DNA from: Opitutaceae bacterium TAV5
GTDB lineage: Bacteria; Verrucomicrobiota; Verrucomicrobiia; Opitutales; Opitutaceae
NCBI GenBank assembly: GCA_000242935.3
Contig: CP007053.1
Location: 310,001 to 374,000, forward strand
DNA length: 64,000 bases
Direction: 5' to 3'
The notes below the pieces were generated by a model. That model was not told the origin of the DNA. It ran no database searches and saw only the letters and a list, made by a program, of their open reading frames with translations. A program made the translations under genes and the position numbers. Below are positions 11,369-55,240 of the stretch, in pieces. Positions within the stretch are counted from its first letter, which is position 1; each line of letters opens with the position of its first letter.

Positions 11369-12325
11369 ATGTATCACATTCCCGACGACACCCTCGACCG
11401 CTGGCTCCGCGAGGACGCCCCTTATCTCGACCTCACCACGCACACCCTCGGGCTCGGCCCGGAGGCCGCCCGCATCGCCTTCCACACCCGCCAGCCCGTC
11501 GTCGTCTGCGGGACCGAGGAAGCGGCGCGCATCCTCGCCGCCGCAGACGGCGCCGGTAGTCTGGAGTTCAGGGTTTCGAGTCTGGAGTTGTACCAGGCTG
11601 CTCTCTCAAGCCCTGAACTCCAAACCCTGAACGCCAAACTGGATTTCGCTCTCCCCTCGGGCGCGGCCGCCGCGCCGGGCGACCTGCTCCTCGCGGCTAC
11701 CGGCCCGGCCGGAGCGCTGCACATCGCGTGGAAAGTCTGCGCCAACATCCTCGAACACGCCTCCGGCATCGCCACGCGCACCCGTCAGCTTGTGGAAACC
11801 GCCCGCGCTGCCGCTCCATCCGGCCGGCACATCAGCGTGGCCGCCACCCGCAAGGGTTTTCCCGGCACGCGTGAACTCGCCATCAAGGCAGTGCTCGCCG
11901 GCGGCGGCGTGCCCCACCGTCTCGGTCTCTCCGAAACGCTGCTCGTTTTTGCCCAGCACCGCGCCTTTTTCCCCTCCGATACCGTATTCGCCTCGAAAAT
12001 ACCCGAACTGAAGGCGCGGGCCTGCGAGAAAAAGTTCATCGTCGAGGCCGACACTCCCGAAGAAGCCCGCCGCTGGGCCGACGCCGGCGCCGACGGCGTG
12101 CAGTTCGACAAACTCCCGCCTCCCGCGCTCGCCGAAGCCGTGGCCGCCCTCCGCGCCGCGCATCCGGGCCTGCTCATCCTCGCCGCCGGCGGCATCAATG
12201 CCGCCAACGCCGCCGCCCATGCCGCCACCGGCGTCGATGCCCTCGTCACCTCGTCGATGTTCAGCGCCCCGCCCGCCGACATCCGCGTCACGATTCAGCC
12301 CTTGCCCGGCACATCTCATGCTTGA
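11369..12325 (+). CDS. modD: ModD, NadC-like protein of molybdenum uptake clusters
   Basis: A 318-residue protein of the ModD family (TIGR01334), related to quinolinate phosphoribosyltransferase (NadC) but consistently linked to molybdate transport. N-terminal EDAPYLDLTTHTLGLG, central HISVAATRKGFPGTRELAIKAVLAGGG and C-terminal GADGVQFDKLPP and LILAAGGINAANAAAHAATGVD are characteristic of the NadC-type barrel. The family reaction is unproven. Residues about 64-92 are encoded by a palindromic repeat that also occurs inside mgtA, and this stretch interrupts the N-terminal domain between EEAARILAAADGAG and FALPSGAAAAPGD. The frame is preserved, so a functional protein with an inserted loop is expected. 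Confidence 0.85.
   Translation: MYHIPDDTLDRWLREDAPYLDLTTHTLGLGPEAARIAFHTRQPVVVCGTEEAARILAAADGAGSLEFRVSSLELYQAALSSPELQTLNAKLDFALPSGAAAAPGDLLLAATGPAGALHIAWKVCANILEHASGIATRTRQLVETARAAAPSGRHISVAATRKGFPGTRELAIKAVLAGGGVPHRLGLSETLLVFAQHRAFFPSDTVFASKIPELKARACEKKFIVEADTPEEARRWADAGADGVQFDKLPPPALAEAVAALRAAHPGLLILAAGGINAANAAAHAATGVDALVTSSMFSAPPADIRVTIQPLPGTSHA
11560..11638. repeat. Palindromic repeat R5 inside modD
   Basis: The right arm CCCTGAACTCCAAACCCTGA followed by ACGCCAAAC is nearly identical (one mismatch by eye) to the right arm of the element inside mgtA. The left arm GGAGTTCAGGGTTTCGAGTC is its imperfect inverted complement. It sits in frame in modD and adds about 29 residues. Confidence 0.8.
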
Positions 12326-12418
12326 GCCACCGGTCAGGCCTCACCTTTTCCGGAGACGGTTTCCGGAAACGACGGGCCGGTTGCCCGTCGCACATCAACC
12401 ACCACCAGACCACATCAC

Positions 12419-12628
12419 ATGAAACTCAGCGCCCGCAATGTCATCCCCGGCAAGATCGTCTCCATCAAAAAAGGGCCGATCAGCAGCCTCGTCGTCATCG
12501 AGATCGCCCCCGGCATCCGGCTCACCTCCACCGTCACCGCCGATGCCGTCATCGACCTGAAACTCAAGAAAGGCTCCGCCGCCTGGGCCATCATCAAGGC
12601 CCCCAACGTCATTCTCGGCGTGGACTGA
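12419..12628 (+). CDS. mop: Molbindin (single Mop domain)
   Basis: A 69-residue protein that is one complete Mop/TOBE unit: MKLSARNVIPGKIVSIKKGP at the start, VVIEIAPGIRLTSTVTADAV in the middle and AWAIIKAPNVILGVD at the end. Molbindins form hexamers that bind molybdate or tungstate in the cytoplasm and buffer the pool. The gene closes the operon-like series of Mo-related genes and is the strongest single clue that the upstream transporter handles an oxyanion of Mo or W. The size matches single-unit molbindins such as clostridial Mop. Confidence 0.9.
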   Translation: MKLSARNVIPGKIVSIKKGPISSLVVIEIAPGIRLTSTVTADAVIDLKLKKGSAAWAIIKAPNVILGVD

Positions 12629-12749
12629 TCCGTGCGGGAGCAACCGGATGGTGTCCGGCGTATAACGGAGCGACACCTTCAGGCCGCCCGATTTCCCCTG
12701 CCGGGCAAACGCCCTCGCCACCGCTTCCGCCTCCTGCGAAACGGGAGAC

Positions 12750-13883
12750 TCAGGCGGCAGCGGGCGGACCGGCTACGGTGGCTTCGAAGAGGGCGAGAAC
12801 CTCTCCGGAGGTCAGCGGCGCCCCCCGGTCGCGGGCGCGGGACCGCACCCGGCCGGCAAGAGCGCGGGCTTCCGTCCGGGTGAGCGTGGCGCCGCAGGCT
12901 TCGAGAGCGGCGGCCACGGCGGCTGCTCCGGTGTGCGCGCCCAGCACAAACCCGGAGGGCGTCCGCCCCACTGCGGCGGGATCAAAGGGTTCGTAGCTAC
13001 GCCGGTCGCGCAGCAGGCCGGCGCAATGAATGCCGGACTCGTGGAGAAAAACGGCGTCGCCGACGATCGGCTTCTGCGCGGGAACGGGGCGACCGGAGGC
13101 TCGGCCGACAAGGGCGGAAAGCCCGGCGAAGCGGGCGGTGTCGATGCCGCAGTCAATGCCTTCCGCGACGAGGAGCGCCATGACGACTTCCTCGAGGGCG
13201 GCATTGCCGGCGCGTTCGCCGAGACCGTTGACCGTGAGGCTGGCGGCGGAGGCGCCGGCGGCAAAGGCCGCCAGCGTGTTGGCAGTGGCAAGGCCGAGGT
13301 CGTTGTGCGCGTGCATCTCCAGCGGCAGCGCAGGGGCGGCGCGGCGCAGATGCGAGACAAGGTCCGCCGTGCGGACGGGAGAGAGAAAACCGACGGTATC
13401 GGCAAGACGCAGGCGGACGGCCGGGGTCCGGGCCGCGGCGGCGGCAAATTCAGCCAGAAAACCGGGATCGGCCCGGGACGCGTCCTGGGCACCGACTGTT
13501 ACCTGGTCAAACTGTTCGCGGGCGGCGGAGACGAGCTCTCCGAGCGTGGCAAGCACCCCGTCCGGAGTCGTTCCCCAGATGCGCATGTGGATTTCGGATA
13601 CGGGAAACGAGATATGCACGCCGCAGACGCGGCAGGCGCGGGCAAGCGCGATGTCCGCGGGCAGGGCCCGGCACCAGGTGATGACCCGGGCGCGTCCGGC
13701 GACGGCGTCGGCGACAGCATTGATGTCGTCGATCGCGCCGGAGCCGCCGGCAGGGATGCCCACCTCGAGTTCGGACAGGCGCGCGTCGACGAGGGCGCGG
13801 GCAATCGCGACCTTGTCGTCGCGGCTGAAAATGACGCCGGCTGCCTGTTCGCCGTCGCGGAGTGTGGTGTCGATGAGGTGCAT
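12750..13883 (-). CDS. nifV: Homocitrate synthase NifV
   Basis: A 377-residue DRE-TIM enzyme (acetyl-CoA + 2-oxoglutarate to homocitrate), with the catalytic N-terminal motif [13 protein letters not shown], the metal-binding [19 protein letters not shown] and [18 protein letters not shown]. Homocitrate is the organic ligand of FeMo-, FeV- and FeFe-cofactors, so NifV serves the Fe-only nitrogenase here. The frame stays open upstream, but that part is repeat and ferredoxin antisense; ATG at 13883 starts directly at the conserved [13 protein letters not shown]. It lies 25 bases after the ferredoxin gene, which follows nifB, so the three probably form one unit. It could be confused with isopropylmalate synthase, but the length and context favour NifV. 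Confidence 0.9.
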
Positions 13884-13908
13884 GTGAGCGGATGACGTGG
13901 CCGGCGGG

Positions 13909-14079
13909 TCAGCCCGGATGCACGGCGTTTTCGGGACAGGCATCGGCGCAGGCGCCGCAGTCGATGCATTTGGCGGGATCGATGCGGTAGGGCGCGCCGG
14001 AGACGATGGCTCCCTCCGGGCAGTCGCCCTTGCAGGCGCCGCAGGCGACGCATTTTTCGGACGTGATTTCGTAAGACAT
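13909..14079 (-). CDS. 2[4Fe-4S] ferredoxin (FdxN-like)
   Basis: A 56-residue ferredoxin with two complete CxxCxxCxxxC motifs: Cys10, 13, 16, 20 ([15 protein letters not shown]) and Cys38, 41, 44, 48 ([15 protein letters not shown]). The sequence starts [16 protein letters not shown] and has the pseudo-twofold layout of clostridial-type ferredoxins. Such ferredoxins next to nifB commonly donate electrons for NifB cluster assembly or to dinitrogenase reductase. It sits between nifB and nifV on the same strand, so a role in FeFe-cofactor synthesis or electron supply is likely. The reading frame is short but complete, with all eight Cys ligands. Confidence 0.92.
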
Positions 14080-14088
14080 GGTGGATGT

Positions 14089-14206
14089 TGGCAGTTTGAA
14101 GTTTGTAGTTTGTAGTTGGTGGTTTGAAGTTGGTGGCTGGCGGGCGGCGGCTGGAAGAAGGGGCGAGTCGGATTATCACTAAATTCCAACTACAAAATTC
14201 CAACTA
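14089..14206. repeat. Palindromic repeat R4, copy 2
   Basis: Left part TTTGAAGTTTGTAGTTTG and GTTGGTGGTTTGAAG, right part AAATTCCAACTACAAAATTC. It fills the nifB to ferredoxin spacer and could form a hairpin in the transcript. A related element precedes the GTPase gene of the Mo module. Confidence 0.7.
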
Positions 14207-14226
14207 CTCCCGGCGCAGCCGGGCCC

Positions 14227-15558
14227 TCAGGCGCAACCGGAGCCGGAGCCCTTGCAGTCGGCGCCGCAGGTGGTGAACCGGCGGGCGAGCGAGGCGGGGA
14301 GCGGTTGGTCGTTGAAGACGGAGGCGAGGCCCTCTTCGATCATGCCCTCCATCTCGACGATGCGGATGCCCTGCCCCTCGAGGGCGCGCCTGGGTTGCGG
14401 GCCGGCGGCGGAGACGAGAAAGGCGCGGCAGTCGTGCAGGAGCGCGGCGAGGTCGCCCCACCGGGCGGGACCGGCGCCGGGCGGAGGCGTGCGGCGGACT
14501 TCGACAAATCTGAAGCCGGAGGGCGTCCCGGCGTCCTGCCGGAAGATGAGGACGCGGGCGGCCTCGCCGAGGTGCTGGTTGACGAGCATGCCTTCCTGCG
14601 AGGCCACGGCGACGCAGGGGCGACGGGCGAGGTCGCGGGCGCTGGCGGGGCGAGAAAATGCGAGAAGGACGGCATGGTCCTCGGGCGTCATGGGCTCGTC
14701 GATACGGCCGACGGCATCGGCGCGGCAGCGGGCGCAGTGCGTCATCTGCGGGACGTGGCGGCCGGCGCGCAGGCGGGTGCCGGCGACGAGGGCGGCATCC
14801 GGCGGCGGAATGGCCTCGAACTCGGCGCCGCCGACAGGAAGGAAGGCCATGCAGTTCATGATGTCCACCTTCAGCGCGGCCATCTGGCGGGCGACCTCCT
14901 CGATGTGCCGGTCGTTGATGCCGGGGATGATGATGGTGTTGATCTTGACGACGATGCCGGCCTCCTTGAGCCGCTGGATGGCCGAGAGCTGGCAGTCGAG
15001 GAGAAGCCGGGCGGCATCGACTCCGCGCAGAGGGCGGTGGTTGCCCCTGACCCAGGCGTAGATTTTCGCGCCGATGGCGGGATCGACGGCGTTGACGGTG
15101 AGGGTGACGTGGCTGACCTGGAGGGCGGCGAGGTTGTCGATGTGGGGGGCGAGGCCGAGGCCGTTGGTGGCCAGGCAGAGGATCATGTCGGGATGGCGGC
15201 GGCGGACGGCGGCGAGCGTGGCCATGGTCTCGACGGCGTTGGCGAACGGGTCGCCGGGGCCGGCGATGCCGGTGACGGCGAGGTTGGGCACGCGCCTGAG
15301 CGTGGCGTCGAGGTAGTCGGCGGCCTGCGCGGGGGTGAGGACGGCGCTGGTGACGCCGGGCCGGCTCTCGTTCATGCAGTCGAACTTCCGGTTGCAGAAG
15401 TTGCACTGGAGGTTGCAGCGCGGGGCGACGGGCAGATGGATGCGGCCGTGAGTGTGGTGTGAGGACTTGTTGAAGCAGGGGTGTTTGCCGAAATCGAGGG
15501 CAACCGCGGCGGGCCCGGTGAGGGAGCCCGCGGGCGTGATGTCTGGTTCGTTTGTCAT
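14227..15558 (-). CDS. nifB: Nitrogenase cofactor biosynthesis protein NifB
   Basis: A 443-residue radical SAM enzyme that builds the carbide-containing [8Fe-9S-C] precursor (NifB-co) needed by all nitrogenases. The radical SAM Cys motif is Cys48-x3-Cys52-x2-Cys55 (CNLQCNFCNRKFDC); before it is the NifB-typical DFGKHPCFNKSSHHTHGRIHLPVAPRCN segment, given here in part only, and the core continues with GPGDPFAN, CLATNGL and VKINTIIIPGIND. The C-terminal 130 residues form a NifX/NafY-like domain (VAVASQEGMLVNQHLGEAARVLIF), and the tail has Cys pairs. It likely heads a nifB-ferredoxin-nifV unit. A sigma54-type promoter sequence lies about 180 bases upstream. Confidence 0.95.
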   Translation of the reverse strand: MTNEPDITPAGSLTGPAAVALDFGKHPCFNKSSHHTHGRIHLPVAPRCNLQCNFCNRKFDCMNESRPGVTSAVLTPAQAADYLDATLRRVPNLAVTGIAGPGDPFANAVETMATLAAVRRRHPDMILCLATNGLGLAPHIDNLAALQVSHVTLTVNAVDPAIGAKIYAWVRGNHRPLRGVDAARLLLDCQLSAIQRLKEAGIVVKINTIIIPGINDRHIEEVARQMAALKVDIMNCMAFLPVGGAEFEAIPPPDAALVAGTRLRAGRHVPQMTHCARCRADAVGRIDEPMTPEDHAVLLAFSRPASARDLARRPCVAVASQEGMLVNQHLGEAARVLIFRQDAGTPSGFRFVEVRRTPPPGAGPARWGDLAALLHDCRAFLVSAAGPQPRRALEGQGIRIVEMEGMIEEGLASVFNDQPLPASLARRFTTCGADCKGSGSGCA

Positions 15559-15930
15559 GATCCTGAGAGTACAGATGGCTGCGGCCTGCGGATGCGCCGG
15601 CCCGGAGGCGGACGGGCGCCCCGGCGGTGCGTCGGATTTTCACCAGGACAGGGTCGCTCATCCTCCTTTCACGGAAGATACCCCTGCAGCCAAGGCGATC
15701 ATGTGGCCGGCTTGCGGCCGGCAGATGCAGGGCAAGCAGGCGCCGTGCCATCATGCGGCGGAAGACAAATGCGGGCCGATATTGGATCGGTCACCGGGAA
15801 CCGGATACGAAATCGCGAACCGGAAGCCTCCCGTCGCCCCGGCGGATGGATTTTTTCGGCGCGCTGGTCAAAAATGATCAGCAAAGCCAGGCGGGCCTCT
15901 GCGGATGCGCTTTTTTGTCCATTGCCGGAA
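15559..15930. other. Intergenic region between draT and nifB
   Basis: No gene with coding character is visible. The region carries the candidate sigma54 promoter for nifB and what should be a long nifB leader. The frames that stay open here have poor codon use and no recognisable domain. Confidence 0.6.
15736..15750 (-). promoter_or_regulatory. Candidate sigma54 (-24/-12) promoter for nifB
   Basis: On the minus strand the sequence reads TGGCACGGCGCCTGCT. This has GG and GC separated by exactly ten bases, as sigma54 promoters require, with one mismatch to the TTGC -12 element. It lies about 180 bases before the nifB ATG. No upstream activator box was found by eye. Confidence 0.5.
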
Positions 15931-16812
15931 TCAGCTGCGGAGGCGGCGCACGTGGTATTCACCGCCAAGGACCAGGCATTCGGATTCGGCTTGCAGGATC
16001 GGGGGCGGGAGCAGGCCGCTGAAAAAAACGATCTTGGAGAGGGGCACCGCGGTTTCCCATACGAAGTGGCCGAATTCCCAGGCGACTTCGCGGTCGGAGG
16101 AAAAGGAGCTGAGGTTGTTCAGCTCGACGAGCAGGCGGCCTTCACGGGGAGGCGCGGCGCTGATGGTGTATTCGTCGGGATCGTGGGTGCCCCGGTAGAG
16201 AGTGAGCCAGCGCTCGCCGGGATGGCGGCGGGCGAGCTCGGCCTGGCAAAACGTGTAGAGCAGGTCGAGTTGCATGAAAAGGCTGGGCGTCTGCGCGGCT
16301 CCCTTCATGCGATCGAGCGCGTAGCGTTCGCGGGCCGCCGGATCTGTCGCCAGACGGCCGTGGTGCCAGGTGGCGCGCAAGCCGAAGCGGCTTTCGACCC
16401 AGGCCTTGAGCGCGGCGCCGGACGGGCTGTTGCTGTCCACGCCCCAGTTGCGCAGCGACGCGAGGTAACTGGACCGGAGGCAACGCTGCGCAGGGCCGGA
16501 GAACTCCTGCCACTCGTGCAGCCGGAACTTGACCGACACGTAATCGTGAAAGACACGCCCGCGCTCGGCCGGATCGTCGATGCCGTCGAGCCGCTCCCAA
16601 AGACGGCGGTCGGTAAGCCGCAGGTGACCGAGCTCGAGCGGCTGCGGATCGTCTTGAAACTCCCACGAGGAAATCGCCCACGGCGAGAAGTTGCAGTGAT
16701 TGAAAAGAGAGGGAAGCGTCGGAAGAGGGGCAGGCTGCACGGTGGAAAAAGGGATACCCGGATCAAACCCGGCCGAAGGCAGAACTGAAGCCGAAACATG
16801 CCGGCCTTTCAC
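15931..16812 (-). CDS. draT: Dinitrogenase reductase ADP-ribosyltransferase DraT
   Basis: A 293-residue protein recognised as DraT, which inactivates dinitrogenase reductase (NifH/AnfH) by transferring ADP-ribose from NAD+ to a conserved Arg when ammonium appears or energy falls. Family segments are LPSLFNHCNFSPWAISSWEF, FHDYVSVKFRLHEW, WLTLYRGTHDPDEY (the NAD-binding R of the ADP-ribosyltransferase core) and LNNLSSFSSDREVAWEFG. The start is GTG; no in-frame ATG gives a better N-terminus. It is divergent from anfH, whose product carries the target Arg. The partner hydrolase DraG is not in the window, so reversal would need a distant draG. Confidence 0.92.
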   Translation of the reverse strand: MKGRHVSASVLPSAGFDPGIPFSTVQPAPLPTLPSLFNHCNFSPWAISSWEFQDDPQPLELGHLRLTDRRLWERLDGIDDPAERGRVFHDYVSVKFRLHEWQEFSGPAQRCLRSSYLASLRNWGVDSNSPSGAALKAWVESRFGLRATWHHGRLATDPAARERYALDRMKGAAQTPSLFMQLDLLYTFCQAELARRHPGERWLTLYRGTHDPDEYTISAAPPREGRLLVELNNLSSFSSDREVAWEFGHFVWETAVPLSKIVFFSGLLPPPILQAESECLVLGGEYHVRRLRS

Positions 16813-17016
16813 ACAGAAACGTACCTTGACGTAATCATGACCGCTGCTTCAGGGAAACCGGGGGCCTGTTTTCCTCCGGCCCGCCCCGGTGTTCGGGAGA
16901 ATATACGATCCGGAACACCGGCGCGCGGAAATGTGCGTTTCCGTAACAAAGCCGCCGGGCGACGCGGACAGGGCCAGCACGCGGAATATACGAAAAGGAA
17001 CTATTTCGGAAGATGT

Positions 17017-17030
17017 GTACGCATTTGTAT
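17017..17030 (+). promoter_or_regulatory. Candidate activator box 1 upstream of anfH
   Basis: The sequence GTACGCATTTGTAT fits GTAC-N6-GTAC with one mismatch. That is the form I remember for the VnfA-type activator site. It is centred about 120 bases before the predicted transcription start, a usual distance for enhancer binding. AnfA is the likely binder (inference). Confidence 0.5.
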
Positions 17031-17040
17031 ATAACAGAAA

Positions 17041-17054
17041 GTACAAATAGGTAA
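17041..17054 (+). promoter_or_regulatory. Candidate activator box 2 upstream of anfH
   Basis: The sequence GTACAAATAGGTAA repeats the GTAC-N6-GTA pattern 24 bases after the first box, close to two helical turns, consistent with paired dimers on one DNA face. Confidence 0.45.
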
Positions 17055-17099
17055 AAAACGGCGGACGGCGATGAAATATTAAAATCTGGCGCCGCATGA

Positions 17100-18029
<930 letters not shown>

Positions 18030-18033
18030 GAAA

Positions 18034-18141
18034 GTTAACCACTAATGCTCACTAATGGCCACTAATTGAAAATATATAAATCCGATAAACAGTGAATTAC
18101 TTCGGATCGGATTAGCGTCAATTAGCGTCAATTAGTGGTTA
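18034..18141. repeat. Palindromic repeat in the anfH-anfD spacer (R7)
   Basis: GTTAACCACTAATGCTCACT and GGCCACTAATTG are mirrored by GGATTAGCGTCAATTAGCG and TCAATTAGTGGTTAA. The arms are about 33 bases each around an AT-rich centre. In the transcript this should form a long hairpin just after the anfH stop codon. Confidence 0.75.
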
Positions 18142-18282
18142 AAAAATGAATTGTCAGAACGTCCCAAAAGACCCGCAGAGGGCGGACGGACCGGAGCCAC
18201 ATAACCCGCCTGTGCGCCCGGCCGGCGGCTCCCTGCGCATGCGAACCGCGCAGGCCCGGCGCAGCGATCATCGTTTATATAA

Positions 18283-19884
<1,602 letters not shown>

Positions 19885-19898
19885 AAGGAAACCACCTT

Positions 19899-20249
19899 AT
19901 GGACGACCTTATCAAGGACAGGACCGAACAGCTCGTGGACTACATCATGAAAAAATGCCTCTGGCAGTTCCATTCCCGGGCTTGGGACCGGAAGGACCAG
20001 AACGAAGGCATCCTGAGCAAAACCACGCAGCTATTGTGCGAGGAGCCCGTCACGCTCGATACTCCGGCCGACCGGTGCTACTGGGTGGACGCCGTCTGCC
20101 TGGCGGAAGCTTACAAGAGCCGCTATCCGTGGATGAACGCCCTGGGCAAGGAGGAGATCAGGACCCTCATGAAGGCCGTCCACGAACGCCTGGATTTCCT
20201 GACCATCACGGGCTCCCTCAACCTGGAGCTCACCGACCAACACTACTGA
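19899..20249 (+). CDS. anfG: Iron-only nitrogenase delta subunit AnfG
   Basis: A 116-residue delta subunit, found only in the V and Fe-only nitrogenases, where it binds the alpha subunit and stabilises the complex. Family features are [34 protein letters not shown] and [13 protein letters not shown]. The gene lies 14 bases after anfD, with AAAGGA upstream of the ATG, and 16 bases before anfK. The gene order anfD-anfG-anfK is the standard one. Confidence 0.96.
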
Positions 20250-20265
20250 CAGGACATCATCATTT

Positions 20266-21651: not shown

Positions 21652-21757
21652 CGACTCCGGCGCGGCCCCCCCTCCCCCCCCCCGCCGCCGGCATGATTTC
21701 AGGGACGTTTCAGCGAACAGAAGGAGTGAGTCCCTGCTGTAGTAAAAAGGTAAGTAC

Positions 21758-21786
21758 GGTCTCCGGGGTGCGTAGCCCCGGAGACC
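21758..21786 (+). terminator. Strong hairpin after anfK
   Basis: GGTCTCCGGGG, a seven-base loop, then CCCCGGAGACC gives an 11-bp perfect stem. No T-run follows (TTCCTC), so it is more likely an mRNA stabiliser or partial terminator between the structural genes and the accessory genes than a full terminator. Confidence 0.6.
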
Positions 21787-21822
21787 TTCCTCAAGGATTC
21801 TGGAAATGAACGGAGGCATGAC

Positions 21823-22449: not shown

Positions 22450-22491
22450 GAACAAACGAACCTCTGTATCCATTTTTACACACACACAATT

Positions 22492-22986: not shown

Positions 22987-23023
22987 CCGGGACCGGCACC
23001 CGTCGTCCGCATCATTGTCCACC

Positions 23024-23725: not shown

Positions 23726-23730
23726 CCGGG

Positions 23731-25404: not shown

Positions 25405-25592
25405 CTTCGGAAAGGATTGGCCTTGGTAATCAAAACTTCATTTGGAAAAGGAATACGATTCCGGTCCGCCCCTGTGCCGGTCACGCGACAGTGAATCGCT
25501 TTTGTCAATTTTGATAGCCAGCATCAAATATGCCAGACAGCGGGAATGCATGTTTTTGGAACACCCGGCGGAGGCCGGATAAAACAGGACTT

Positions 25593-25610: not shown

Positions 25611-25617
25611 CCTGCTC

Positions 25618-26760: not shown

Positions 26761-26796
26761 GACCGGGGAATGTCACATGCTTCTTACCCCGTGTCT

Positions 26797-29255: not shown

Positions 29256-29924
29256 TTGTCCGAAACCCTCCACATCACGCTCTTCACCCTCGCCATCGCG
29301 CTCGCCAGCACGCTGCTCATCCTGCCCCCCGGCGTCGCGCTCGCCTGGCTCCTTTCCCGCCGCGCCTGGCCGGGCAAGGCCGTCGTGGAAACCCTCGTCG
29401 CCCTGCCCCTCGTCATCCCGCCTGTCGCCACCGGACTCATCCTCCTGAAACTCTTCGGCCGCCGCAGTCCGCTCGGCAGCTTTCTGGAAAACACGCTCGG
29501 CCTCGAAATCGTCTTTACCTGGAAAGCCGTCCTCATTGCCACCGCCGTCATGTCGTTTCCCCTCTTCGTGCGCACCGCGCGCGTCGCCTTCGAGGAGATC
29601 GACCCGCGCTTCAACCAGGTGGCCCGCACCCTCGGCGCCGGCCCGTGGGACGCCTTTTTTACGGTCACGCTCCCGCTCGCCACGCGCGGCCTGCTCGCCG
29701 GCAGCGTGCTCGCCTTTGCCCGCGCGCTCGGGGAATTCGGCGCCACCATCATGATCGCCGGCATGATCCCGGGCGAAACCATCACGCTCGCCCTCGGCAT
29801 CTACCACCACGTGCAGCTCGGCCGCGACGCCGAGGCCACCGTCCTGCTCGTCATCTCCATCGCCCTCGCCTTCGTCGCCCTCTGGCTCAGCGAAAAACTC
29901 GTCCGCAAGACAATCGCCACATGA
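29256..29924 (+). CDS. modB: Molybdate ABC permease ModB
   Basis: A 222-residue inner-membrane permease with five or six hydrophobic helices. The coupling (EAA) loop is near residues 120-145 (FEEIDPRFNQVARTLGAGPWDAFF, quoted in part) and the family region ALGEFGATIMIAGMIPGETITL follows. The only suitable start is TTG at 29256, and no clear Shine-Dalgarno is visible because a palindromic repeat occupies the modA-modB spacer. Translation may thus be weak or the exact start may differ. It works with ModA and ModC in molybdate import. Confidence 0.9.
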   Translation: MSETLHITLFTLAIALASTLLILPPGVALAWLLSRRAWPGKAVVETLVALPLVIPPVATGLILLKLFGRRSPLGSFLENTLGLEIVFTWKAVLIATAVMSFPLFVRTARVAFEEIDPRFNQVARTLGAGPWDAFFTVTLPLATRGLLAGSVLAFARALGEFGATIMIAGMIPGETITLALGIYHHVQLGRDAEATVLLVISIALAFVALWLSEKLVRKTIAT

Positions 29925-29943
29925 TATCAACGCGCCAGGAGTT

Positions 29944-30044
29944 CCGGATTTTTACACAAAGGGCGCAAAGAACGCAAAGACTTGCCGATGGCCTCCTTCG
30001 CGCCCTTGGCGATCTTTGTGTAATATCCAGAACATTCGGGACGC
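29944..30044. repeat. Palindromic repeat R2, copy 3
   Basis: CCGGATTTTTACACAAAGGG and GATCTTTGTGTAATA form the arms; the unit ends with AACATTCGGGACGC, identical to the flank of the copy near 5.4 kb. Confidence 0.8.
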
Positions 30045-30073
30045 CGCTATGAAAACCCCATTTTTCAAACCGG

Positions 30074-30188
30074 ATGGCCACAAAAAGGCACAAAAGAACA
30101 CGCCGCGCATGGAACCCTCCATCGCGCTTATAAGCGCACGGGAGACTCCCCACGGGCAGAAGGATTTTTTGTGCCTTTTTGTGGCCAT
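30074..30188. repeat. Palindromic repeat R1, copy 2
   Basis: Arms ATGGCCACAAAAAGGCACAA and TTGTGCCTTTTTGTGGCCAT are almost perfectly complementary. The centre CGCGCTTATAAGCGC matches copy 1. Together with R2 it fills the modB-modC spacer. Confidence 0.85.
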
Positions 30189-37740: not shown

Positions 37741-37763
37741 GTGGTCAGCGTGAAAAACAGCCC

Positions 37764-37841
37764 GTGAAACACACGAAAGGGCACGAAAAGCCGGACCACG
37801 GATTTTCCGGTGGTTTTTTCGTGTCCTTTCGTGTGTTTCAC
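37764..37841. repeat. Palindrome between the M3 peptidase gene and tamB (R9)
   Basis: GTGAAACACACGAAAGGGCA and CGTGTCCTTTCGTGTGTTTC are mirrored almost perfectly around CCGGACCACGGATTTTCCGG. The transcript could form a long hairpin; there is no clear T-run for a simple terminator. Confidence 0.8.
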
Positions 37842-37872
37842 AGGCACTTTCTTTTTTTGTTTCGATTTGCAC

Positions 37873-41493: not shown

Positions 41494-41546
41494 CAGCAAA
41501 ACACCGTCCCTGCCCCCCCATTTTCCCCTTTTAATCCCCGCATCCC

Positions 41547-42236: not shown

Positions 42237-42331
42237 CGCCCCCTCCCTCCCTCCATCCATTCTCCATTTGCGGTCGTTCGCGCACCGGGCGGCCAGCTCC
42301 ACACCAACGACCAACAACTCCACTCCACGAA

Positions 42332-43099: not shown

Positions 43100-43182
43100 C
43101 ACCCCATCCGCCTCCCACCCCCGCGCACACACATTTCTTCCTCCGCCATTCTTCATTCCCCCCCCTCGCAGCCTGCGCAATC

Positions 43183-44007: not shown

Positions 44008-44064
44008 ACCCTCCGTCCCCGGATCTCCCGGCCTCCCGCTCCCTTCTCCCTTTCACGCTTCCGC

Positions 44065-44715: not shown

Positions 44716-44788
44716 CCGGCTGGCAATCGCTGCCTCCCTGCCTTCCGGATTCTTCCCGACCACCGCCTCGCCGCATCCTCCCGCCTTC

Positions 44789-46891: not shown

Positions 46892-47067
46892 GGCGATGAG
46901 TCGGGACGCAGCGGCGTGTCCCCTCCCCCCCCCGGAGTCATCCCTGACGCCGCGCTCCCGCCTCCGGCCCGGAATCAAACCCCGCGCCGGCCTTTCCCGG
47001 TGGAAAAATCAAACCGGCCCGGCCGCTTCTCCTTGCCTGCCGGTCTCCGTGCCCATGCCGTCGTGCC

Positions 47068-48669: not shown

Positions 48670-48696
48670 ACGGCCGCTGCGCGCCCGCCCGCCGTG

Positions 48697-49179
48697 CTAC
48701 AATTTCCCGGCGTGATGCCGCAGCGCGCGCTGCTGCGCCATCAGTTCGGGCGCCTCGGTGGTGTCGAGGAGCACGTCGACAAGTTCTCTCACGGCATCCG
48801 CCGGTCTCCCGGCGGCGTGCAGCGCGAGGGCCAGCCAGGGGAGCAATTCGGGATTGTCGGGAAATTGCAGCCGGGCGTTTTGCAGCGTGGACACAGCGCG
48901 GTCGGCCGCGCCGTCGAGGCGCTGGCAGTTCGCCAGGCCGATCAGGGCGCCGATGTGCTCATTGGGCTCGGCGAGGCCGAGGACGAGGGCCTTTTCGTAA
49001 TACGGCAGCGCCTCGGCCGGCCGGTCGAGCGTGTCGAGCGTCCAGGCGAGCTGGTACTGGATTTCGGCGATATGCGGGAAACGCCGGTCGAGATCGCGAA
49101 GACGCGGGACAAGCGCCTCGATCTGGCCTCCGTGACGGGAGCCGATGATGGCATCGAGAATGGGTTTCCAGTCGGACAT
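48697..49179 (-). CDS. Tetratricopeptide-repeat protein
   Basis: A 160-residue cytoplasmic protein (MSDWKPILDAIIGSRHGGQI at the start) made of four or so helical TPR units: IAEIQYQLAWTLDTLDRPAE, ALPYYEKALVLGL, HIGALIGLANCQRLDGAADR and LLPWLALALHAAGRPADAVR. TPR proteins act as interaction scaffolds; the partner is unknown. The longer open frame adds 51 residues without TPR character, so ATG at 49179 is used. Convergent with the antiporter gene. Confidence 0.75.
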   Translation of the reverse strand: MSDWKPILDAIIGSRHGGQIEALVPRLRDLDRRFPHIAEIQYQLAWTLDTLDRPAEALPYYEKALVLGLAEPNEHIGALIGLANCQRLDGAADRAVSTLQNARLQFPDNPELLPWLALALHAAGRPADAVRELVDVLLDTTEAPELMAQQRALRHHAGKL

Positions 49180-49340
49180 GGTTTGAAAAACGTTGCCAAC
49201 GCAGCACAGTGCAAGTCTCCGGTGCAAGCCCGGGAACGCTCCTGCCCGCATGCAGGCTTGGCCCGCGCCGCATCGCCGTCCAATGTCGTAAAAATCCGCA
49301 CCCGATCCGCACGGACCCGAAACCCGCAGCACAAAGCACC

Positions 49341-50111
49341 ATGAACCGCAGCCGCCTCCTGGTCGTCGAAGACGACGATGGTACAGCCCGCAGCCTCGCG
49401 GCCGGCCTCGCCGCCGAAGGTTTTGATGTGCGCACCGCGGCCACCGGCGACCAGGCCGACGCGTCCCTCGCTGCCCGCACCGGTTCCTCTACCTCCGCCT
49501 CCCCGGCAGCTTCCAGCGCCACCGCCGATCTCGTCATCCTCGACTGGATGTTGCCCGGTCTCGACGGCATCACACTCCTGCGCCGTCTCCGCGCCCGCGG
49601 CCAGCGCATCCCCGTGCTTCTGCTCACCGCGCGCGATTCCGTTGACGACCGCGTGCTCGGCCTGGAAGCCGGCGCCGACGACTACCTCGCCAAGCCCTTC
49701 GCCTTTGCCGAGCTCCTCGCCCGTGTGCGCGCCCTGCTCCGCCGTACCACCGCGCCCCGCCAACCCTGGCAACACGCCGTCGCCGACCTGGCCCTCAACC
49801 TCGAAACCCGCCTCGTCACGCGCGCCGGCCACACCGTCGACCTCACGCCCCGCGAATTCGATCTCCTCTCCTACCTCGCCATTCACCAGGGCGAAGCCGT
49901 CAGCCGCGATCAGCTCGCCCGCGAAGTCTGGCGCGAGCACAACCGCGCCACCCCGATCGACAATGTCATCGACGTGCACATCGCCCGCCTCCGCCGCAAA
50001 ATCGACGATCCGCATTCCCAGAAACTCCTGCACACCATCCGCGGCCTCGGCTACATGCTCCGCGCCCCGTCTTCCGCACCCGCCACGCCGCCCGGGAATC
50101 CGGAGTCATGA
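49341..50111 (+). CDS. OmpR-family response regulator
   Basis: A 256-residue two-domain regulator. Receiver: acidic pocket Glu10-Asp11-Asp12 (LLVVEDDDG), phospho-acceptor Asp68 (LVILDWMLPGLDG), Thr/Ser and Lys of LLTARDS and ADDYLAKPF. A 13-residue Ser/Ala-rich insertion sits just before the phospho-acceptor strand. DNA-binding winged helix: LTPREFDLLSYLAIHQGEAV, DNVIDVHIARLRRKID, IRGLGYMLR. It is coupled to the kinase gene by ATGA. Copper-type (CopR/CusR-like) architecture; stimulus unknown. The outer-membrane barrel gene downstream may be a target. Confidence 0.9.
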   Translation: MNRSRLLVVEDDDGTARSLAAGLAAEGFDVRTAATGDQADASLAARTGSSTSASPAASSATADLVILDWMLPGLDGITLLRRLRARGQRIPVLLLTARDSVDDRVLGLEAGADDYLAKPFAFAELLARVRALLRRTTAPRQPWQHAVADLALNLETRLVTRAGHTVDLTPREFDLLSYLAIHQGEAVSRDQLAREVWREHNRATPIDNVIDVHIARLRRKIDDPHSQKLLHTIRGLGYMLRAPSSAPATPPGNPES

Positions 50112-51235
50112 GAGCCTGGTGGGGATCGCTTTCGCTGCGCGCCCGGCTCGCGTTCGCCTTCGGAGCCATGGCTGCCGGCGCGCTTCTCTTTCTCCTCGCC
50201 ATCGTTGCCCGCACTATCGGCACGGAAAATCTCGTCCAGGGAAAAATCCTCCCGGCGACGCTCTTCGTCCTCGGCGTCTTTTTTTCCGGCGGCTGGTTTG
50301 TGGCCGGCTGGTGCCTGCGGGAAATCGGCCGCCTCGGCGCCCGCGCCTCCTCCTCGCCCGCCGATACCGGCAAGACACTGCCCGCCGAACTGGAAGGTCT
50401 CGCCGCCCTCCTCCGGCGCGAGACGGCCCGCCACGACCGCGTGCTGGCCGAGCTCAAACGCTTCACCGCCGACGCGGCCCACGAGTTGCGCACCCCGCTC
50501 ACCGCCCTGCGCACCACCGGCGAAGTCGCCCTCCGCGCCGCCGGCGATTCTCCCGATGCCGTTGCCAACCCCGTCCAGCTCCGCGCCGCCCTGGAAATCA
50601 TGCTCGAGGCCTCGCTCCGCATGAACAGCCTCCTCGAACGCCTCCTGCGCCTCGCCCGCCTCGAAAGCGACACCCTCGTCCTCCACCCCCGTTCCCTCCC
50701 TCTTGCCGACCACCTCGCCACGCTGTGCGACAACCTGCGGATCCTCGCCGAGGAAAAAGCGCAACACATGGAGCTCGACTGTCCCTCCGACCTCACGCTG
50801 GTCACCGACCCCGCTCTCCTCGACCACGCCTTCACCAACATCCTCCACAACGCCATCTGCCACTCGCCTCCCCGCTCCGTCGTGCACATCGCCGTCCGCC
50901 GCGGCCCTCCGTTTGCCGCTTCCCCCTCCCGCAGCACCACCGCCAGCCCGGCCGGCGCCGGCACGATCAGCATTGCCATCACCGACCAGGGGCCCGGCAT
51001 CGCGCCCGAACACCACCTCCGCATCTTCGAACGGTTTTACCGGATCGACGCCAGCCGCGCCCGCGACCACACCGCCCTCTCCGGCGGCGGATCCGGCCTC
51101 GGACTCTGCATCGCCCGCACCGCCATCGAACGCTTGTACGGCACCATCGAACTCGCCAGTTCCCCCGGCCAGGGCGCCTGCTTCACCCTCCGCCTTCCCG
51201 CCTCGCCTCCCGCCACCCCGCCAGCGCAAACCTGA
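50108..51235 (+). CDS. Sensor histidine kinase
   Basis: A 375-residue membrane kinase with two N-terminal helices (AFAFGAMAAGALLFLLAIVA and ILPATLFVLGVFFSGGWFVA) and almost no periplasmic loop. A HisKA domain has the H-box DAAHELRTPLTAL (His125). The HATPase domain has N-box HAFTNILHNAIC, G1 ITDQGPGIAPEH and G2 GGGSGLGLCIARTAIE. The short sensory part suggests that membrane state or a partner is sensed. It phosphorylates the regulator encoded just before it; overlap ATGA links them. Confidence 0.9.
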   Translation: MRAWWGSLSLRARLAFAFGAMAAGALLFLLAIVARTIGTENLVQGKILPATLFVLGVFFSGGWFVAGWCLREIGRLGARASSSPADTGKTLPAELEGLAALLRRETARHDRVLAELKRFTADAAHELRTPLTALRTTGEVALRAAGDSPDAVANPVQLRAALEIMLEASLRMNSLLERLLRLARLESDTLVLHPRSLPLADHLATLCDNLRILAEEKAQHMELDCPSDLTLVTDPALLDHAFTNILHNAICHSPPRSVVHIAVRRGPPFAASPSRSTTASPAGAGTISIAITDQGPGIAPEHHLRIFERFYRIDASRARDHTALSGGGSGLGLCIARTAIERLYGTIELASSPGQGACFTLRLPASPPATPPAQT

Positions 51236-51381
51236 ACAAATCGTCAGGTTCGGATCCTTGTGCGTCTGTCTCCGTCTCCCCCAATCTGCCGCCGAACCAC
51301 CCGGCCGGCCACCCTGCACCCCGTGCGATTCGAGGCCGTCCGGAAACCGACAAACCAACAACCACAAACCACCGGACAGAC

Positions 51382-51975
51382 ATGAAAAAGATCCTGACCG
51401 CGCTCCTCGCCCTTGCCATGGCCGGAGCCCTCCACGCGCAAACCATCACGAAAAGCAACACCGCTTCCCTCTTCGGCCAGCGGTATCTCTCCGCCGATGC
51501 GGAGTATTACGACATCGACGGCCTGAACAGCGTCTACGGCGGCGCACTCGGCTTCAACCTGCCCATCACCACCGACCTCGACGCCCTCTTCCGCTACAGC
51601 TACTCGTGGGAAGACGGCCACACCAGCCGTGAAGTCCAGACGGCCGAAGCCGGCCTCAACACCTGGTTCGATGTCGCCCCCAACCTCCGGGCCTTCGCCG
51701 GCGCCGACCTCGGCTACACCTGGGGCGACGCCGTGAGCAAGGACGACTGGTACGGACGCCTCCGCGCCGGTGCCGAATACACGATCGGCTCCAGCATCAG
51801 CCTCCTCGCTTACGCCGCCTGGTCCGATGGTCTCGACAAACACATCCCCAGCCTCTGGAGCGGCACCGGCCAGGCCAGTTACTGGTTCACCCGCGACCTC
51901 GCCGCCACGGCCAGAATCTCGTGGCTCGAAGGCGGCGACCTGGCTTACAGCCTCGGCGCGCTGTTCAAATTCTGA
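51382..51975 (+). CDS. Small outer-membrane beta-barrel protein
   Basis: A 197-residue protein with a signal peptide ending near ALHAQT and alternating strand-like sequence (YLSADAEYYDIDGLNSVYGG, LDALFRYSYSWEDGH, LRAGAEYTIGSSISLLAYAA) closing with LAYSLGALFKF, a Phe-terminated last strand. It resembles OmpA-like or porin-type eight-stranded barrels without a soluble extension. It follows the two-component genes on the same strand, so control by that system is plausible. Function unknown. Confidence 0.75.
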   Translation: MKKILTALLALAMAGALHAQTITKSNTASLFGQRYLSADAEYYDIDGLNSVYGGALGFNLPITTDLDALFRYSYSWEDGHTSREVQTAEAGLNTWFDVAPNLRAFAGADLGYTWGDAVSKDDWYGRLRAGAEYTIGSSISLLAYAAWSDGLDKHIPSLWSGTGQASYWFTRDLAATARISWLEGGDLAYSLGALFKF

Positions 51976-52357
51976 GGCCCGGCTCGTCCCGCCGAAACCG
52001 TAGCGCGGAGCCTCCCGGCCTGCCATCGAGGGACTCACCCTCCACCCGGTACGGGCCGGAGATTCCTCCCTGCGGACGCATTCGACCCGTCGCGGTCACC
52101 CTGCCCGCGCCAACGTTCGTGACCACCCGGCCTCCCTTGCGCCGCCACAGCCACAACACGAATCAGCCCGCGAAACGCCGCGGGGAGCCCGATGCTCCCC
52201 GCGGATCCCCCACGGCGGCCTCCCGCTCCGTCCCCCCTACCGCCCCTGCATCCGGCCCTGCGCCTGCCCCTCGCCAACCGACGCCTCTCCTGCCATCATC
52301 GACTTCCAGTCCGCCCTTCGCACCCGCTTCCTCCCCCGCTTTTCCAAGCGCCTCCTC
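51976..52357. other. Spacer before the candidate small gene and mgtA
   Basis: Apart from the hairpin at 52178 nothing conserved is visible. The frame of the possible small gene downstream stays open back to about 52004 without a normal start codon. Confidence 0.5.
52178..52204 (+). terminator. G+C-rich hairpin in the spacer before mgtA
   Basis: CCGCGGGGAGC, loop CCGAT, GCTCCCCGCGG: an 11-bp perfect stem. It lacks a T-run, so termination is uncertain. Confidence 0.45.
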
Positions 52358-52552
52358 ATGCGGGTCGACCATTCCGCTGTAATCAAAGGATGGATACGCC
52401 ACGGCGACAGCCCTCTCCCGCCCGGGCAGGCGGCGTGGTATGAAAACTTTCTCAAAAGCCGCAACCTCCGGGTCACCCTGACTCGCCCCCTGCGCCGCCT
52501 CACCGCACTCTTCTGGAAAATCGTCCGCGCCTGCCAGGGACGGCCGGACTGA
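52358..52552 (+). CDS. Possible small protein before mgtA
   Basis: A 64-residue frame (MRVDHSAVIKGWIRHGDSPL at the start, LTALFWKIVRACQGRPD at the end) with GC-rich third positions and an ordinary amino-acid mix, unlike the Arg/Pro-rich shadow frames around it. The frame continues upstream with believable sequence (IIDFQSALRTRFLPRFSKRL) but no ATG, GTG or TTG, so it may be a decayed gene or start on a rare codon. No family recognised; no membrane segment. Confidence 0.35.
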   Translation: MRVDHSAVIKGWIRHGDSPLPPGQAAWYENFLKSRNLRVTLTRPLRRLTALFWKIVRACQGRPD

Positions 52553-52588
52553 AATTTGGGGTTCAGTATCCGGAGGTCGCCGCTTTGA

Positions 52589-55240
52589 GTGTCCGCAAAC
52601 GTGCACCACCCGAACGCCGACAACTCCGGACACCGGATGCCAGACCCGGGCTCCCTCCCCTGCCTCTCGTGGGCGCAGGCCCGCGAGCGACTCGCCACCC
52701 ACGGCCGCAACATCGCCACCCCGCACACCACGCCCGCCTGGCCAGCCCTTCTCTGGCATGCCTTCAAAAACCCCTTCAACTATGTCCTTCTTTTTCTCGG
52801 CGCCATCTCCTGGCTGACCGACGACCTCAAGGCCGCCACCGTCATGCTGACCATGACCGCCATGGCCACCGGCGTACGCTTCTGGCAGGAACGCCGCTCC
52901 CTCGTCCAGACCGATTCCCTGCGCAAACTCGTCCGCAACACCGTCACCGTCCTCCGCCGCCCCGCCGGAGGCGATGCCGTCGCCGCCGAAATCCCCCTGG
53001 AGGAACTCGTCCCCGGCGACGTCGTCAAACTCTCCGCCGGCGACATGATTCCCGCCGACGTCCGCCTCCTCGACTCGCGCCACCTCTTTGTCAGCCAGTC
53101 CCTCCTCACCGGCGAATCCCTCCCGGTGGAAAAATTCAGGGTTCAGCGTTCGGAGTTCAGAGTTTTCGCTAACAAAAGCGGTCCGCCCGCCGACAACCCT
53201 GAACCCCAAACCCTGAACGCCAAACCAAACCCCGACACCCCCGACGCTGCCGACCTCTGTTTCATGGGCAGCAGCGTGGTCAGCGGCGCAGGCACCGCCC
53301 TCGTCCTCGCCACCGGACCCCGCACCCGCCTCGGCGCCATCGCCGCCATCCTTGCCACACGCCGTCCCGAAACCGCCTTCGATCTGGGTGTCAACCAGGT
53401 CAGCGGCACCCTTATCCGCGCCATGCTTGTCATGGCGCCCGTTGTCTTTCTCCTCAACTTCATCGACCGGGGCGACTGGCTCGAGTCCTTCTTCTTCGCC
53501 GTCGCCGTCGCCGTCAGCCTCACTCCCGAGATGTTGCCGATGATCGTCAACACCAACCTCGCCCGCGGCGCCGTCGCCATGGCCCGCCACCAGACCATCG
53601 TCAAACGCCTCGGCGCCATGCAAAGCTTCGGCGCGATGGATGTCTTTTGCACCGACAAGACCGGCACCCTCACCCAGAACCGCGTCGCCCTCATCCGTCA
53701 CCTCGATCCCGAAGGCCGCTCCGCCCGCCGCGTCCTCGAACACGCCTACCTCAACAGCCGTTTCCAGACCGGCCTCAAAAACCTCATCGACCACGCCATC
53801 ATCGAAAAAGCCGGCCAGCTCGGTCTCCGCGAAGCCGCCGCCGCCTGCACCCCGCTCGACGAAATCCCCTTCGACTTCACCCGCCGCCGCATGTCCGTCC
53901 TCATCCGCCGCCCCGGCGGCGGCCCCACCCTCCTCGTCTGCAAAGGCGCCGTCGAGGAAATGCTCGCCATCTGCGACAAGGCCGATCTGGAAGGCCGGAC
54001 CCATCCGCTGACCGACGCCCGCCGCGCCCGCCTCAAGGCCCTGCGCGACAAACTCAACGACGACGGCATGCGCATCATCGCCGTCGCTTACAAAGCCATC
54101 GACAAACCACCCGGCGCCTTCACCGCCGACGACGAAACCGGCCTCATCCTCTCCGGTTACATCGCCTTTCTCGATCCGCCCAAGGAGACCGCCGCACCCG
54201 CCCTCCGCCTCCTTCAGGACCACGGCATCGCGGTCAAGATCCTCACCGGCGACAGCACCCGCGTGGCCCGCCGCATCTGCCGCGAAGTCGGACTCGACGC
54301 CAGTCAGCCTCTTACCGGCGCCGACATCGACACGCTCGACGACGACGCCCTGCGAGCCGCCACCGGCCACACCACGCTCTTCGCCAAGCTCGAACCCGCG
54401 CAGAAAGCCCGCGTCGTCGCCGCGCTCAAAAAAGCCGGCCACACCGTCGGCTTCATGGGCGACGGCATCAACGACGCTCCCGCCCTGCGTGAAGCCGACG
54501 TCGGCATTTCCGTCGAGGGTGCCGCCGCCGTCGCCCGCGAGGCCGCCGACATCATCCTCCTCGAAAAAAACCTGCTCGTGCTCGGGCGCGGTGTGGTCGA
54601 AGGCCGCCGCGTGTTCGGCAACATCATGAAATACCTCAAGATGACCACGAGCGCCAACTTCGGCAACGCCATCAGCGTGCTCGTCGCCAGCACGTTCCTG
54701 CCCTTCCTGCCGATGATGGCGATCCATCTCCTCATCCAGAACCTCCTCTACGATCTCTCGCAGCTTTCCATCCCCTGGGACACGGTGGATGACTCCTGGA
54801 TGAAGCGCCCGCGCAAATGGTCCGCCGCCGGCATCACGCGCTTCATGGTGCGCATCGGCCCGGTCAGCTCCATTTTCGACATTCTGATCTTTCTCGGCCT
54901 GTGGTTTGTTTTCGGGGCCAATACGGCGGAAAAGGAGCACCTGTTCCAATCCGGGTGGTTTGTCGCCGGGCTGTTCACGCAGACGCTGATCGTGCATCTG
55001 ATCCGCACCGAAAAGATCCCCTTCGTGCAGGCGACGGCCGCGCGTCCGGTGCTTCTTCTCACCGGCCTGGTGATGGCGACCGGCTGCCTGTTGCCGTTCA
55101 CTGCACTCGGCCGCGCCGTGGACCTCGAAGCCCTGCCGCCCGGCTACTGGCTGTTCCTGGCCGCGACGCTTTTCGGCTATTGTGCGCTCATGCAGATACT
55201 GAAACGCGTCTACATCAAAAAATTCGGCGAGTGGCTGTAG
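52589..55240 (+). CDS. mgtA: Magnesium-transporting P-type ATPase MgtA/MgtB type
   Basis: An 883-residue P3B-type ATPase. N-terminal cytoplasmic part and TM1-2 (NPFNYVLLFLGAISWLTDDL), actuator domain with SLLTGESLPVEK, TM3-4 with VAVSLTPEMLPMIVNTNLAR, phosphorylation site Asp356 in VFCTDKTGTLTQN, hinge GFMGDGINDAPALREADVGI, and a C-terminal membrane bundle with NLLYDLSQLSIPWDTVD. It imports Mg2+ using ATP. The frame begins with GTG at 52589; an ATG at 52637 is an alternative. Residues about 183-214, right after the TGES motif, are encoded by a palindromic repeat related to the one in modD; the next conserved segment DLCFMGSSVVSG follows intact. Confidence 0.92.
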   Translation: MSANVHHPNADNSGHRMPDPGSLPCLSWAQARERLATHGRNIATPHTTPAWPALLWHAFKNPFNYVLLFLGAISWLTDDLKAATVMLTMTAMATGVRFWQERRSLVQTDSLRKLVRNTVTVLRRPAGGDAVAAEIPLEELVPGDVVKLSAGDMIPADVRLLDSRHLFVSQSLLTGESLPVEKFRVQRSEFRVFANKSGPPADNPEPQTLNAKPNPDTPDAADLCFMGSSVVSGAGTALVLATGPRTRLGAIAAILATRRPETAFDLGVNQVSGTLIRAMLVMAPVVFLLNFIDRGDWLESFFFAVAVAVSLTPEMLPMIVNTNLARGAVAMARHQTIVKRLGAMQSFGAMDVFCTDKTGTLTQNRVALIRHLDPEGRSARRVLEHAYLNSRFQTGLKNLIDHAIIEKAGQLGLREAAAACTPLDEIPFDFTRRRMSVLIRRPGGGPTLLVCKGAVEEMLAICDKADLEGRTHPLTDARRARLKALRDKLNDDGMRIIAVAYKAIDKPPGAFTADDETGLILSGYIAFLDPPKETAAPALRLLQDHGIAVKILTGDSTRVARRICREVGLDASQPLTGADIDTLDDDALRAATGHTTLFAKLEPAQKARVVAALKKAGHTVGFMGDGINDAPALREADVGISVEGAAAVAREAADIILLEKNLLVLGRGVVEGRRVFGNIMKYLKMTTSANFGNAISVLVASTFLPFLPMMAIHLLIQNLLYDLSQLSIPWDTVDDSWMKRPRKWSAAGITRFMVRIGPVSSIFDILIFLGLWFVFGANTAEKEHLFQSGWFVAGLFTQTLIVHLIRTEKIPFVQATAARPVLLLTGLVMATGCLLPFTALGRAVDLEALPPGYWLFLAATLFGYCALMQILKRVYIKKFGEWL
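53138..53226. repeat. Palindromic repeat R5 inside mgtA
   Basis: The right arm CCCTGAACCCCAAACCCTGA continuing ACGCCAAAC matches the element in modD with one mismatch; the left arm has ATTCAGGGTTCAGCGTTCGG and GAGTTCAGAG. It encodes about 30 in-frame residues between two conserved actuator-domain motifs. Confidence 0.85.

Follow-up and report, generated by a model that had tools for sequence, protein, structure and literature searches.

Palindromic sequences lying in frame inside genes are best known from Rickettsia, and among the heptameric simple repeats of bacteria the short tandemly repeated repetitive (STRR) sequences of cyanobacteria are built of a seven-base tandem unit. Here we analyze a dispersed palindromic element of Opitutaceae bacterium TAV5, a cultured verrucomicrobium from termite gut, which is located in frame within two unrelated genes, modD-like and mgtA-like, of a 64,000-nt stretch of its genome (contig CP007053.1, positions 310,001–374,000 of the forward strand; hereafter the window). 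It is very probable that a non-autonomous, dispersed palindromic element has spread in the TAV5 lineage, that both segments are copies of it, and that its in-frame genic copies are tolerated. Several groups of described elements invite comparison. According to PMC10969869, Rickettsia palindromic elements (RPEs) are approximately 150 bp long and fall into ten families, and some miniature inverted-repeat transposable elements (MITEs) fuse with reading frames. Repetitive extragenic palindromic (REP) sequences are named as extragenic in PMC2817692, and heptameric simple repeats are dealt with in PMC4692102.

The TAV5 element resembles RPEs, as these are presented in PMC10969869, in being palindromic, dispersed, located in frame in unrelated genes and marked by a recurring encoded peptide. 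It differs from them in its arms, where a degenerate heptamer is tandemly repeated (GTTYRRR in the 5′ arm, its complement YYYRAAC in the 3′ arm), in the site-specific hairpins flanking its copies, in its verrucomicrobial host, and in the occurrence of in-frame copies of GTTYRRR palindromes in other phyla. The likeness to RPEs had been proposed in the first-pass annotation of the window; it holds for the behavior of the element, and no link in sequence was found. Seven insert peptides gave no NCBIfam or Pfam match, in a comparison made at the peptide level against libraries that may not hold all RPE families. The element may therefore be described as working like RPEs but with heptamer-array arms. 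With REP sequences and REPINs (REP doublets forming hairpins) it shares short palindromic repeats, a high copy number and hairpins, whereas its unit is a wobbling heptamer and it is not linked to the five Y1_Tnp loci that were read. The seven-base tandem unit is common to STRR sequences, but in TAV5 a pair of opposed arrays forms a palindrome around a core, in many copies, and four of the seven places of the unit are variable, mainly by transitions (the arm-calling pattern favors GTTYRRR, so that the base counts arise partly by construction). Finally, like MITEs, the element is small, non-autonomous and has inverted repeats; in contrast to them, no clean target-site duplication was seen, and the search for related transposase ends covered the five Y1_Tnp loci. 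No earlier report of these elements was found in open-licence PubMed Central papers, where three papers contain one of six heptamer strings, under subjects that are unrelated as judged by the title and the start of the abstract.

The modD-like gene of the window (11369..12325, + strand) encodes a protein of 318 aa with Pfam QRPTase_N and QRPTase_C domains; its name is taken from the first-pass annotation. Element 1 (11559–11639, 81 nt) lies in frame within it and consists of a G-arm of GTTYRRR-type heptamers (11559..11586, +; peptide SLEFRVSSLE), a loop (11587..11604, +) and a C-arm of YYYRAAC-type heptamers (11605..11639, +; peptide SSPELQTLNAK). Element 2 (53134–53225, 92 nt) has the same G-arm, loop and C-arm layout and is carried in frame by the mgtA-like gene (52589..55240, +), which encodes a P-type transport ATPase of 883 aa, its start codon being uncertain. 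The G-arm of element 2 (53134..53168, +; peptide FRVQRSEFRVF) is placed directly behind the TGESLPVEK motif, as had been noted earlier, its loop (53169..53197, +; peptide ANKSGPPADN) ends with the shared core GCCGACAAC, and after the C-arm (53198..53225, +; peptide PEPQTLNAK) the protein sequence is taken up again with DLCFMGSS. Both reading frames were confirmed to run through the segments. The 29 nearly identical bases reported for the two genes correspond to 11611–11639 and 53197–53225 (97% identity). The proposed common repeat is thus real, with the refinement that it is a degenerate 7-mer array and not one fixed sequence. When the 21-mer CCTGAACNCCAAACCCTGAAC was searched for with up to 3 mismatches, 3 matches were obtained in the window and none in 100 shuffles.

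Comparison with relatives placed the MgtA segment in a variable loop. The arms are absent from the 8 MgtA relatives compared (L140, a ninth, is not in the set), including the gene of a same-genus genome, G001 (79% identity), relative to which the TAV5 gene shows a net gain of 54 nt for an element of 92 nt; in the solved MgtA chain 8uy7 the loop at this place is shorter. Among 57 genomes one ModD-like relative was found (G055, 44% identity). It is without the ModD segment, in an alignment that covers ModD residues 2–57 and 85–312 and leaves the stretch between them to comparison by eye.

Analysis of the TAV5 genome revealed that the element is present in many copies. Exact GTTYRRR ×3 arrays gave 43+43 matches (overlapping matches counted separately), compared to 4+3 for a reversed control; the corresponding values for G001 were 3+0 and 3+2. 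From 47 regions, fetched around the exact matches, matches of CCAAACCCTGAA and two one-mismatch matches, together with the window, 65 arrays were called. Of these, 34 copies are two-armed and span 72–133 bp (arms plus loop). The first 100 of 213 one-mismatch matches were inspected, so weak copies are partly covered. Heptamers that had not been selected by the search were read beside 30 of 31 seed matches: a full YYYRAAC was present in 7, 14, 5 and 4 of the 30 at places −2, −1, +1 and +2, respectively, and both bases were seen at the degenerate places. Since these unselected neighbors also follow YYYRAAC, the element is not the product of the search pattern alone.

In the orthologue comparison suggested in the first-pass annotation, at least one relative lacks the segment at 16 of the 21 genic two-armed sites. 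Besides mgtA and modD, protein comparison identified such absences in murB, ddl, creatininase, uvrA, an ABC-F-like ATPase, oppC, malF-like, x085, dxs, malF, pfkB, valS, wd40 and the first heparinase site; one relative each was compared for oppC and malF, and at the wd40 and x085 sites some relatives contain other residues. The flanks are 62–92% identical, often in a same-genus genome without the segment, with values for G001 of 90.5% in ValS and 91.6% in the ABC-F-like ATPase. Length differences from G001 were obtained at 14 of 15 sites and range from 54 to 153 nt, every one being a multiple of three. The unplaced site in this DNA comparison is that of the polyphosphate kinase gene (ppk), for which the protein comparison worked, and for wd40 and the heparinase gene, whose DNA alignments are poor near the insert, lengths alone were used.

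The 21 of 34 two-armed copies assigned to genes were labeled as genic by our own reading of spanning frames, Pfam domains, read-through and relatives. Two further two-armed copies, at 502127 and 806043, are spanned by open frames and were counted as non-genic, having no known identity or a weak coding score. Hosts recognized by Pfam include a MurC-MurB fusion, D-Ala-D-Ala ligase (Ddl), UvrA, ValS, Dxs, FeoB and MgtA, as well as ABC transport proteins, a pfkB kinase, a heparinase with two copies, and others; labels such as modD, uup and oppC are short names, in part taken from the first-pass annotation, with Pfam domains behind them. Arrays called as one-armed are present in ppk, which is outside the 21, and in PheT of TAV5. 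All 21 genic copies have an open sense frame, and 12 of them are without an open frame on the opposite strand. Twenty are read through in the frame of the gene, the remaining one (5542409, in a PDZ protein) resting on a spanning frame. One kind of peptide, with variation, is encoded by 20 genic two-armed copies (VQGSEFRVQ..PADN..KPETLNPEP), an example being VQGSEFRVQSSGNTSVADNSKPETLNPEP in the OppC-like protein. The core GCCGACAAC is in sense with the gene in all 12 genic copies of clear orientation (at most 2 mismatches); it is symmetric in one other, and no core within 2 mismatches was present in the other 8. In genic copies TGA occurs 0.26 times per heptamer in the sense C-arm, compared to 0.62 in the complement of the G-arm, and the respective values for the 13 other copies, in arbitrary orientation, are 0.46 and 0.29.

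These features bear on the possibility that no element moves and that the inserts arise locally, the 7-base repeats having slipped in variable loops. The arms are indeed tandem repeats of a short unit, with a variable number of units, located in indel-prone loops. However, the same two-armed layout is found in unrelated genes, the core is held in sense in 12 genic copies, one kind of peptide recurs in 20, and the copies adjoin hairpins; slippage yields neither an inverted second arm nor a shared core. We regard this explanation as very improbable.

That an element of this kind is translatable in any frame may have a simple reason in the consensus itself. Three heptamers make 21 nt, that is, seven codons, and according to the genetic code a pure array encodes the same peptide repeat, shifted, in all three frames. 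Stops arise in GTTYRRR only if TRR is TAA, TAG or TGA, and in YYYRAAC only if a TRA is present. Since an arm reads alike in three frames, this arithmetic can explain the tolerance of the element within genes. The proposal of a mobile palindromic element able to enter coding DNA without destroying the gene, made in the first-pass annotation, is supported by the absence of the segment in relatives, the open frames and the recurring peptide; its movement we infer. The element would have spread within the TAV5 lineage, where many copies are seen inside genes, probably once this had diverged from the same-genus relative; at individual sites the latter may instead have lost it. A genic copy would persist where it is translatable, and in-frame copies in variable loops would leave the protein working. 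Open insertions may have been kept by selection, the genic copies observed today being the presumed survivors.

TAV5 arms adjoin hairpins whose stems differ between copies and reach 20 bp. A stem score of at least 7 was recorded at 31 of 68 flanks, compared to 1.0% of random and 1.9% of GC-rich anchors; at the two elements of the window hairpins of this kind are weak or absent. The malF copy has a 19-bp stem (1 mismatch), the inner arm of which is an inverted copy of gene sequence (16 of 19 bases common with G001) and is missing from G001, and the malF-like and valS copies look similar. For uvrA, murB and dxs, relatives have sequence of similar length at the place of the hairpin. The element would either pick hairpins or make them.

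Fold-back repair could also be considered, in which the 3′ ends at a break snap back, copy their own flank, gain heptamer arrays by template switching and are joined. The site-specific stems adjoining the heptamers and the malF inner arm fit this model, and the G-strand repeat would sit on both 3′ ends. The core common to the copies implies, however, that the interior is not newly produced in every copy, the hairpins of uvrA, murB and dxs align with sequence of similar length in relatives, and stem-bearing flanks are not enriched in other lineages (3 of 150, against a background of 1.3%). With Ku also giving no match in TAV5, fold-back repair appears doubtful, and its Ku-dependent end-joining form was dropped on that ground.

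Another candidate is a REP/REPIN-like sequence moved by a REP-associated tyrosine (RAYT, Y1) transposase, with the flanking GC hairpins as REP ends. Hairpins adjoin the arms in many copies, Y1_Tnp gave 6 matches in TAV5, and a TGA/TCA loop is present in 5 of 16 adjacent hairpins, compared to 9 of 132 elsewhere. Against this, the stems vary from copy to copy, and every one of the 23 genomes tested has Y1_Tnp, also those poor in the heptamer. Moreover, none of the five (of 6) TAV5 Y1_Tnp loci read carries a clear GTTYRRR array, the sole find being one weak GATTT-type match in L325. An origin of this type seems unlikely.

An origin as retroelement products, that is, reverse-transcribed RNA hairpins, would agree with the sense orientation of the core in the 12 oriented genic copies, but the survival of open frames can account for this bias as well. 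RVT_1 (PF00078) gave no match in TAV5, no Rfam family reached the gathering score on the window, L067, L099, L105 or L090, and the agreement between arms is at chance level. We consider this origin hardly credible; reverse transcription was dropped, RVT_1 being unmatched in TAV5, and an RNA with a co-varying stem is unsupported, arm agreement being at chance and Rfam giving no match. For the dispersed element itself, movement in trans by an enzyme that favors or creates hairpins at the target may be envisaged, and we suggest, with low confidence, a trans-acting single-strand process using target hairpins as the mover.

The distribution of similar palindromes was examined in other bacteria. Of 387 genomes of the phylum, 48 contain GTTYRRR ×4, the highest number being 125 matches in one; controls were low in most genomes but not in all, an example being G261 (28 matches, control 29). 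In the named genome collection the palindrome pattern matched at least 120 stretches, of which 80 loci were tabulated and 77 two-armed elements called. The listed records are named as Planctomycetota, Bacteroidota, Cyanobacteria, Geobacter and Desulfobacterales-type bins, Acidobacteria, Omnitrophica, Gemmatimonadaceae, Armatimonadetes, Verrucomicrobia, Proteobacteria and Sulfurovum, and many of them are metagenome bins. Ten cases lie in open frames, including L391 and L402; family models, together with a single solved relative, were used to assess them, and of the eight scanned six matched a family and two did not (L361, L372). In-frame elements are found in the conserved genes for PheT (L355, a Pirellula bin; L369, an Omnitrophica bin), GlnRS (L400, Lacipirellula limnantheis), ValS (L414, a Planctomycetota bin) and an RluA-family pseudouridine synthase (L368, a Blastocatellia bin), and the Gmd open frame of L413 (Algoriphagus kandeliae) spans the element. 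In the solved GlnRS relative 5bnz, 6 residues occupy the place taken by 34 in L400. A 29-aa composite peptide gave no tblastn match in 72,556 plasmid records and was unmatched among solved structures.

Several results weigh against the interpretation of the segments as copies of a dispersed element tolerated in genes. Genome-wide tabulation of the copies, as proposed in the first-pass annotation, gave the open sense frames and sense cores described above and no excess in genes: long frames, open for 60 aa to either side, contain 23 of the 34 copies, compared to 273 of 340 random windows. Spanning open frames helped to assign the genic label, which makes the openness and part of the TGA asymmetry circular; the 13 non-genic copies may include broken genes, and the loop of the 5542409 copy, to which no core orientation was assigned, seems antisense by eye. 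At the fer4 site relatives hold 24 residues, and at the second heparinase site the sequence of the relative ends short, so both are outside the 16 absences; the orthologue comparison covered 18 of the 21 sites, the others being those of the PD-(D/E)XK protein, FeoB and the PDZ protein. Agreement at the degenerate places is as low between the two arms of one copy as between arms taken from different copies (0.629 compared to 0.632; 278 of 500 shuffles at or above), which gives no sign that base pairing is kept up. Direct repeats of at least 5 nt flank 8 of the 34 copies, compared to 2.8% of random anchors; all are GC-only hairpin motifs, and no clean target-site duplication was seen. Neither the five Y1_Tnp loci read, without a clear GTTYRRR array, nor the other families searched (RVT_1, Ku) yielded a mobilizing gene. 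Outside TAV5 most of the palindromes are intergenic: of the 70 elements with enough flank, 10 lie in open frames, compared to 228 of 350 random windows. Metagenome bins are the source of 4 of the 6 identified genic cases there.

A broader scheme may be advanced as a speculation that we consider more probably wrong than right by a wide measure. GTTYRRR-armed palindromes could form a pan-bacterial selfish class, present in many phyla, whose movement needs no reverse transcriptase and consists in copying a 7-base unit, with wobble of the transition type. It would be pre-adapted to in-frame entry of essential genes (21 nt being 7 codons) and in TAV5 would be bordered by inverted target copies, as if fold-back and repeat addition had extended a break at both of its 3′ ends.

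In-frame palindromes are now seen in a cultured termite-gut verrucomicrobium, in genes such as those for ValS, Ddl, UvrA and MurC-MurB, with single cases beyond TAV5 in records named Planctomycetota, Omnitrophica, Blastocatellia and Algoriphagus. A single isolate provides a natural set of some 20 household proteins with an insertion, which makes it testable whether protein loops originate from selfish DNA.

Further repeats were observed in and around the sequences analyzed. The window contains a third two-armed member of the family (GTTTGAAGTTCGAAGTTTGAA ... TTCAAAATTCCAACTTCAAAC; 9707..9789, no strand assigned), which is located at a gene boundary and was counted as non-genic, and a lone weak GTTYRRR array (14094–14114). 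Elsewhere in TAV5, single C-arms lie at gene 3′ ends at approximately 197515 (L061) and at approximately 6291952 and 6293084 (L101; chromosome coordinates), where they appear to supply the stop codon of the upstream frame. The two-armed pattern also matched 21 viral-contig stretches (L469–L489), one contig having several copies.

In G001, poly-G/C runs of at least 9 number 22 in 46,817 bp (L139, L202, L206, L210, L214, L218, L232, L236, L240, L248, L252, L256 and L260), compared to 13 in 387,247 bp of TAV5. Such a run stands in place of the TAV5 element at 4 sites, namely in the ABC-F-like ATPase, malF-like, dxs and malF genes. In the x085 orthologue of G001 (L252) the site of the TAV5 element is occupied by another insert, SEISNLKSQIGG, the coding DNA of which, TCTGAAATCTCAAATTTGAAATCTCAAAT, looks like a further heptamer class (GATTTGA).

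Three other palindromes of the window, at 5357–5432, 18035–18142 and 37755–37850, have arms with the periodic units CACAAAG, CACTAAT and CACGAAA, respectively, and are perhaps further families of the same design. Two dispersed repeat pairs were also identified in the window: 4054–4149 and 30084–30179 (96 nt, 82% identity), and 5331–5461 and 29924–30054 (131 nt, 78% identity).

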